A DNA stretch of 34,173 nt from Chromatiales bacterium USCg_Taylor (GTDB lineage Bacteria; Pseudomonadota; Gammaproteobacteria; JACCXJ01), in assembly GCA_002007425.1 (NCBI GenBank), contig MUGK01000020.1:1-34173 (forward strand). Direction: 5' to 3'. The position numbers and the translations under genes are program-made. The notes beneath the pieces were generated by a model that was given only the letters and a program-made list of their open reading frames with translations, ran no database searches and was not told the origin of the DNA. The stretch's first letter is position 1. Each line of letters begins with the position of its first letter. Shown piece by piece: positions 18,256 through 19,448 of this stretch.

Positions 18256-18344
18256 GCCTAACGCCGCGTTGAGCCGCGCGGAGCACGGACACAAAAGGAA
18301 CGGTGCGCTGTCTCACCGCGTCGGCCTCGAAAGCGAAGTTAAGT
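18256..18344 (-). other. candidate attC-like integron cassette recombination site
   Basis: On the minus strand: ACTTAAC (RYYYAAC) ... GTTAGGC (GTTRRRY) bounding 89 bp; inner arms pair GC-TT-GAG-CCG-CGCGG with three unpaired bases on one arm; starts 1 nt after an ORF stop codon (18346-18348). Confidence 0.6.
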
Positions 18345-18345
18345 T

Positions 18346-18959
18346 TCACGCATGCGTCCATTCATGACAGACGCTATACCGTGTAGCGAAGTGCGGCTCT
18401 TGGAAAATGGACGCTTCGACCAACTCAATGAGTAGCTCGGGCCATCGCTGCTTGATGCAAACGAAGAGATCTCGTCGCTTTGCAATACTTCTGTCAGTGT
18501 CTCCGGCGCGGAGCAGAACGAAAGAATCGATGAATCTCTTTGGGGATACGACATAGGCCAAAGCGGGCTCTGGGGACGAAAAATATATGTCATCTGGTGA
18601 AGGGTCATACTCGAAACGGGAAAGACCGTCGTAAGACTTGTAAGACGCTCAAAATCGAGCCTGCCCAGAAACTCATCAGTGTTTATCTCAGAAACCACAA
18701 GAACGCGTTCGGGCGCAAAGAATGCCAACGAAGGCAACTCATCTATATAGAACACAGTTCCTTGAACCCTGCGCGTTTCGCAAAATGCCTTTGCGGAGTC
18801 GAGGGTCGAGTGTATACAACCCGGAGAGTAACGCGTTATCCAAGTGCTCCACCAAGCGTTTCTTCCGGTGGTGACATAAAAAACCTTGACGACCTTGACC
18901 GCGCGCGCCATGAAGCGAAGGTCCGCCGGCTTAGCGTTTGATGCTGTGATGAGCTGCAT
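18346..18959 (-). pseudogene. hypothetical cassette-type protein of about 202 aa, apparently frameshifted in a homopolymer
   Basis: Frame of ORF 18339-18959 reads coding-like to ...MTLHQMTYIF; sequence then continues naturally in another frame (SSPEPALAYVVSPKRFIDSFVLLRAGDTDRSIAKRRDLFVCIKQRWPELLIELVEAS...CHEWTHA*). Confidence 0.55.
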
Positions 18960-18986
18960 GTAAAACCTAACGAGCGGTAAGACGAG

Positions 18987-19265
18987 CTACCTAATATCGA
19001 ATGCCGGCAGCCCATACGAAGCATCCTTGTTATGGACGGCTGGGTACAGCTGCGAAGCGCGGATTTCAAAGGCGGGTAACCCGTAGGCACAGCGTTTGTT
19101 GTGCACGGTTGGATAGAGCTTAGAGCCACGTATCTCAAATGCGGGTAGCCCGAATGAATCGTGCTGGTTATGCACGGTGGGATAAAGCTGGGTGCCTCGG
19201 ATCTCGTATGCGGGCAAGCCGTACGAGGCTCCTTTGTTTTGCACGGTCGGATACAAAGCGCTCAT
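18987..19265 (-). CDS. small four-fold tandem-repeat protein (92 aa, 23-aa units LYPTVHNxxxxxGLPAFEIRGxx)
   Basis: Four in-register repeats after MSA; repeated residues are conserved while codons differ between units. Confidence 0.82.
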   Translation of the reverse strand: MSALYPTVQNKGASYGLPAYEIRGTQLYPTVHNQHDSFGLPAFEIRGSKLYPTVHNKRCAYGLPAFEIRASQLYPAVHNKDASYGLPAFDIR

Positions 19266-19448
19266 GACCTGTTCCTCAACGCAGTTTTTCTGCTATGCCC
19301 AACCAATGATTAGATGTTTTCTGGATATTATCCTACGAATGGATATCACACCGTTGGTATCGTGACAATAAGGCCTTGTTTCGACAACCATTGTTTGTCT
19401 GTATATCATGCCTATTTACAAGGTAGCCCGGCTAGCACGCCGTCATTT

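Follow-up and report, generated by a model that had tools for sequence, protein, structure and literature searches.

The window that we analysed comprises positions 1–34,173 of contig MUGK01000020.1 of Chromatiales bacterium USCg_Taylor. On its minus strand lies a small open reading frame, P0001, whose product consists almost entirely of four repeated units, together with short motifs of the kind that can bound integron gene cassettes. The features of the locus are as follows.

18987–19265, minus strand: open reading frame P0001 for the four-repeat protein, 92 aa, ATG to TAG, with homologues
19188–19256, minus strand: unit 1, LYPTVQNKGASYGLPAYEIRGTQ
19119–19187, minus strand: unit 2, LYPTVHNQHDSFGLPAFEIRGSK
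19050–19118, minus strand: unit 3, LYPTVHNKRCAYGLPAFEIRASQ
18990–19049, minus strand: unit 4, LYPAVHNKDASYGLPAFDIR, without the final three residues of the unit
19274–19277, minus strand: GAGG, Shine-Dalgarno-like, 8 nt upstream of the P0001 ATG, by direct reading
19297–19303, minus strand: GTTGGGC, possible upstream cassette boundary (GTTRRRY), motif only and, at 7 bases, weak evidence
18965–18971, minus strand: GTTAGGT, possible 3′ boundary of a cassette after the P0001 frame, motif only
18256–18262, minus strand: GTTAGGC, possible 3′ boundary of the next cassette, motif only

The 92-residue peptide and its four 23-residue units, as proposed in a sequence-only reading of this DNA, match the minus-strand translation exactly, and the forward frame across 18987–19265 is interrupted by stops. 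Purine-rich motifs similar to the GAGG of P0001 also precede most of its homologues. When the protein is compared with itself at a lag of 23 residues, 46 of 69 positions are identical, the best of 20,000 shuffles reaching 15 at any lag. The leucine of the GLPA motif is indeed encoded by four different codons in units 1 to 4 (TTG, CTA, TTA and CTG), and between units pS is 0.73–1.05, with synonymous sites near saturation, and pN is 0.12–0.20, a combination indicating that selection acts on the protein. A dN/dS near 1 between units had been named as evidence against such selection; we find dN (0.13–0.23) far below dS. The neighbouring open reading frame called at 18339–18959, also on the minus strand, looks frameshifted, its sense-looking reading shifting near 18560 to the frame of the ORF at 18346–18561 (RAGDTDRSIAKRRDLFVCIKQRWPELLIELVEASIFQEPHF); as called, it matches no family.

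A single peptide-word scan of 85,488 species genomes recovers six true relatives with 57–71% identity, in Pseudomonas yangonensis, Corallococcus, Idiomarina, a Bacteroidia MAG, a Mycobacterium MAG and Georgenia. Two other candidates were dropped, one in Leeuwenhoekiella (L009) that is a lone YGLPAFEI peptide within a large unrelated protein, and one in Corallococcus (C1165) that is a low-complexity false match. Plasmid records add relatives at 35–43% identity from E. coli and Enterobacter, where they are on small plasmids, and from Cupriavidus, as well as one from Vibrio; a viral contig adds another (L014, 47% identity), and an actinobacterial genome one more (L041). The actinobacterial copy is enclosed in an open frame of 758 aa, which is an artefact of GC-rich sequence and no fusion. 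The family ranges over Gammaproteobacteria, Myxococcota, Bacteroidota and Actinomycetota (four phyla), with identities mostly of 42–71%. The number of units, whose conservation among homologues had been proposed as a test of the repeats' significance, is constant, with exactly four in all 10 of the 10 intact full-length relatives, each of 23 residues except in Vibrio (18 residues). The Georgenia relative (L008, 5998–6141) is a protein of 47 residues with two units only, and could be either a dimerising half-ring or a remnant. The Cupriavidus copy (L013, 5001–5279) contains one in-frame stop codon.

The gene is rare and patchy. Among genomes drawn evenly, it is present in one of 398 Pseudomonadota beyond the window genome (as a Cupriavidus-type pseudogene), in none of 398 further Bacteroidota and in one of 348 further Actinomycetota, and the plasmid form is found in 14 of 5,426 E. 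coli genomes, plasmid-borne in every case. This rarity, taken with the high identity across phyla, implies horizontal transfer. Sequence searches of Pfam, NCBIfam, PHROGs, PADLOC and PDB with P0001 give no significant match, although phrog_11467 recurs with E-values of 4e-4 to 0.02 over only ~25 residues; phage records contain no match, and a literature search by repeat peptides found no paper about the family. The annotation of two plasmids (L011, 2142–2648, and L012, 5407–5709) has a hypothetical protein antisense to the four-repeat gene; in most of the other E. coli records the site is without an annotated gene. That the E. coli homologue mostly goes unannotated in RefSeq and PLSDB, or is replaced there by an ORF called on the opposite strand, could suggest a chance ORF lying over a tandem repeat, but this is exceedingly improbable and already refuted by selection and conservation, since synonymous change is saturated and non-synonymous change low both between units and between homologues (dN/dS is ~0.05 for L010 against L011), and length and start are the same across distant phyla. 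P0001 is a real translated small protein, and its family is one that had no name.

The surroundings of the relatives show how the gene travels. In P. yangonensis the copy lies within a run of same-strand ORFs with attC-like repeated elements on both sides, the spacers of the array being related 60–75-nt elements ending CGTTGGGC, CGTTATGC and CGTTAGAAC, and on the Idiomarina contig positions 2741–2800 form an attC-like site; such calls were made by eye and with a simple attC scan that missed the P. yangonensis elements. The P. yangonensis copy is like an integron gene cassette in being a small ORF, in sharing the orientation of its neighbours and in having attC-like elements, and the window genome has a gene for a full-length integron integrase, IntI (L017, 1382–2323, on contig C134 of genome G000; TIGR02249, 500 bits). 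The window copy differs from integron cassettes in having GTTRRRY boundaries only and in that IntI is on another contig. Scanning, folding and genome-wide similarity, used without an attC covariance model, reveal no convincing attC hairpin in the window; no attC-type hairpin was found before the GTTAGGT at 18965–18971, and the GTTAGGC element at 18256–18262 has no repeat elsewhere in the window genome. The 2.6-kb IntI contig, separate from P0001, carries the integrase beside an ABC-transporter permease-like gene, with no array visible there. On the viral contig a phage integrase is close to the L014 copy. Taking these settings together, the gene moves as cargo on integron-like arrays, small plasmids and a phage-like contig.

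Comparison of 36 units shows that positions Y2, P3, T4, G13, L14, P15, E18 and R20 are nearly invariant and that positions 8–11, 16 and 22–23 are variable. The T, N, E and R residues are kept in nearly every unit copy, position 13 is G in 32 of the 36, and position 10 is D or N in at least 16. In seven proteins, the identity of units between proteins is 0.607 for matching positions and 0.606 for non-matching positions (permutation p 0.43), and that of units within a protein is slightly higher, at 0.668. The simplest reading of these alignments is that the same constraint would act on all four unit positions, as in a symmetric ring. Because synonymous sites are saturated between the units of the window gene, their likeness is not due to recent copying, and the earlier description of the repeats as old holds for this gene; it does not hold for other members, in which units have been homogenised recently. 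Recent copying of units is evident from the sequences of Corallococcus, in which units 2 and 3 are almost the same DNA, and of the plasmid members, whose units share 92–96% protein identity.

Structure prediction, which had been suggested as a check, is uninformative with AlphaFold2 when P0001 is given as a single sequence (pLDDT 42). With a seven-row family alignment one of the five models is confident (pLDDT 85.9, pTM 0.75), but the other four have pLDDT values of 50.0 or below. A low-confidence, disordered prediction had been named as a ground for rejecting the idea; with its one confident model this check, like those on unit number and on dN/dS, favours the idea. The best model has eight short strands in four repeats (residues 3–6, 20–23, 26–29, 43–46, 49–52, 66–69, 72–75 and 89–91), with turns of ~2 residues alternating with loops of ~13 residues, and it leaves the first strand and the last free to pair with each other, which suggests a closed ring. 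On this model the four units probably close into a four-petalled ring. Each unit would contribute a strand (LYPT), a long loop (VHNxxDSYGLP) and a second strand (A[FY]EIR) followed by a two-residue turn, and the units would pair as eight short antiparallel strands to form a beta-ring of the beta-flower type.

Beta-flowers are closed, shallow barrels of 8, 10 or 12 short antiparallel strands, whose hairpins form petals in 4-, 5- or 6-fold symmetry. Their long loops are on one face and their short loops on the opposite one, a [DNEQ]xxG motif is semiconserved at the hairpin tip, and the fold is reported to be without a match in the PDB (PMC10584680). The P0001 family is most readily compared with the 4-fold beta-flowers (PF21784, clan CL0395; Durairaj et al. 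2023, PMC10584680), which it resembles in its length of ~90–100 residues, in the predicted eight short strands in four repeats with alternating short and long connections, and in the placement of G at the end of the long loop with D, N or E three residues earlier in about half of the units. It differs in its 23-aa unit and 13-residue loop, compared with a unit of ~16–18 aa in the PF21784 member L029, and in being without a secretion signal or central helix. The 6-fold beta-flowers (PF21786) have six units rather than four, and their members L046 and L047 look secreted. Neither P0001 nor the scanned homologues with 23-aa units match PF21784, PF21785 or PF21786 above the curated cut-off. A Vibrio conjugative-plasmid protein (L025, 3977–4213; WP_016800108.1) has four 18-aa units with the same pattern (KxYKYMSASxxxYEIKGN) and scores 22.5 bits against PF21786 (Bflower_3), below the 34-bit cut-off, a match we consider weak because the same protein also matches Myb_Rap1, surely spuriously. 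The Foldseek and HMM searches that had been recommended gave no match to the P0001 model in PDB or BFVD and no significant comparison of the whole-family HMM with beta-flower sequences (whole-profile hhalign 0.1%); only at the level of the unit is there a weak match, to PF21786 (E 0.0086, probability 4.7%), with strand, turn and strand in the same register. The initial idea of a four-fold toroid or beta-flower is partly supported: the predicted eight strands, the loop pattern and the motif would fit it, but no beta-flower profile scores above cut-off; as modelled, the resemblance in shape and motif is good and the profile support is weak.

The genes beside the family, which like its mobile setting could not be seen in the sequence-only reading, offer hints as to what it does. 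Five of the 11 loci have, directly beside the four-repeat gene or nearly so, a gene with a strong match to a phage-defence model. The Bacteroidia MAG (L006) has a tight cluster in which an AriA/OLD-like ATPase (AriA-like, 252 bits) lies one gene upstream of the four-repeat gene, whose neighbours are 11 and 20 bp away; in Cupriavidus (L013) a CBASS SAVED-PDDEXK effector (678 bits) is 70 bp upstream; a convergent PDC-S53 gene (1308 bits) is at 35 bp in L007; and there is a PD-T4-6-like kinase (142 bits) nearby in L004 and a SLATT protein (114 bits) nearby in Idiomarina (L005). Two E. coli plasmids have a NACHT gene beside the four-repeat gene, and in the window a Uma2 gene with a weak PDC-S03 match is one gene away from P0001. 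TniQ and AAA genes also lie near the Cupriavidus copy, the one with the in-frame stop. For comparison, ten further genes were taken from these loci, two of which are near the four-repeat gene, and they gave a single weak match (23 bits); the contrast is suggestive, but this comparison set is small and defence models readily match kinases and ATPases. Each locus has different defence neighbours, and PADLOC gives no match for P0001 or its homologue L003.

As a single guess, a putative role in association with defence is the likeliest. The whole reading that we favour, tentatively and at somewhat below an even chance, is that of a translated, soluble, four-petalled ring of the beta-flower type that is mobile cargo and helps or regulates nearby defence or stress genes. 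The gene would spread horizontally with integron-like arrays, small plasmids and phage-like elements, and the protein may act on neighbouring phage-defence or stress genes through a small molecule, a nucleic acid or a partner protein. The ring would present four small putative binding sites, which are most likely equivalent since the units have no position-specific signature and T, N, E and R are near-constant.

A modest but appreciable probability attaches to a stand-alone mobile gene that is unrelated to defence and is co-located with defence genes through common mobile elements. The copies in P. yangonensis, Georgenia, Vibrio, most E. coli plasmids and the actinobacterial genome G1252 are without a recognised adjacent defence gene, as would be expected of such a gene, but the strong defence matches close by in five of 11 loci, against the one weak match in ten comparison genes, are then less easily accounted for. 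It is also conceivable, though unlikely, that the protein is a counter-defence or an immunity or antitoxin-like factor, with the ring binding and restraining a defence effector or signal: carriage on plasmids, the phage-like contig and integron-like arrays would suit this, as would the proximity to the Cupriavidus CBASS effector and the AriA-like cluster, but the effectors vary by locus, many copies are without any, and a conserved toxin partner is absent. The Tubby resemblance of the fold raises the prospect of a membrane- or lipid-binding beta-flower whose ring docks on the inner membrane, and some beta-flowers are reported to have lipoprotein motifs and Tubby-like features (PMC10584680), with a membrane-type SLATT protein neighbouring the Idiomarina copy; we regard this as quite doubtful, given that the family has no apparent signal peptide, lipobox or hydrophobic helix and that the tips of the long loops are variable and mostly polar. 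The favoured reading of a ring that aids or regulates defence can be taken further, to an undescribed mobile family of four-fold beta-rings serving as a shared accessory of unrelated CBASS, AriA-like, NACHT, PDC-S53 and SLATT systems, in which the four equivalent sites might, for example, bind a signal nucleotide or phage product that the systems have in common, but we consider this extension improbable.

P0001 is a minimal natural repeat protein, with four nearly interchangeable units in 92 residues, and the natural two-unit relative could be used to test the formation of rings from half-rings. Because public annotation mostly misses the gene, surveys of mobile cargo and defence islands do not see it. 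If the link to defence holds, it would provide the first testable role for a beta-flower-like shape, whose function has been unknown so far.
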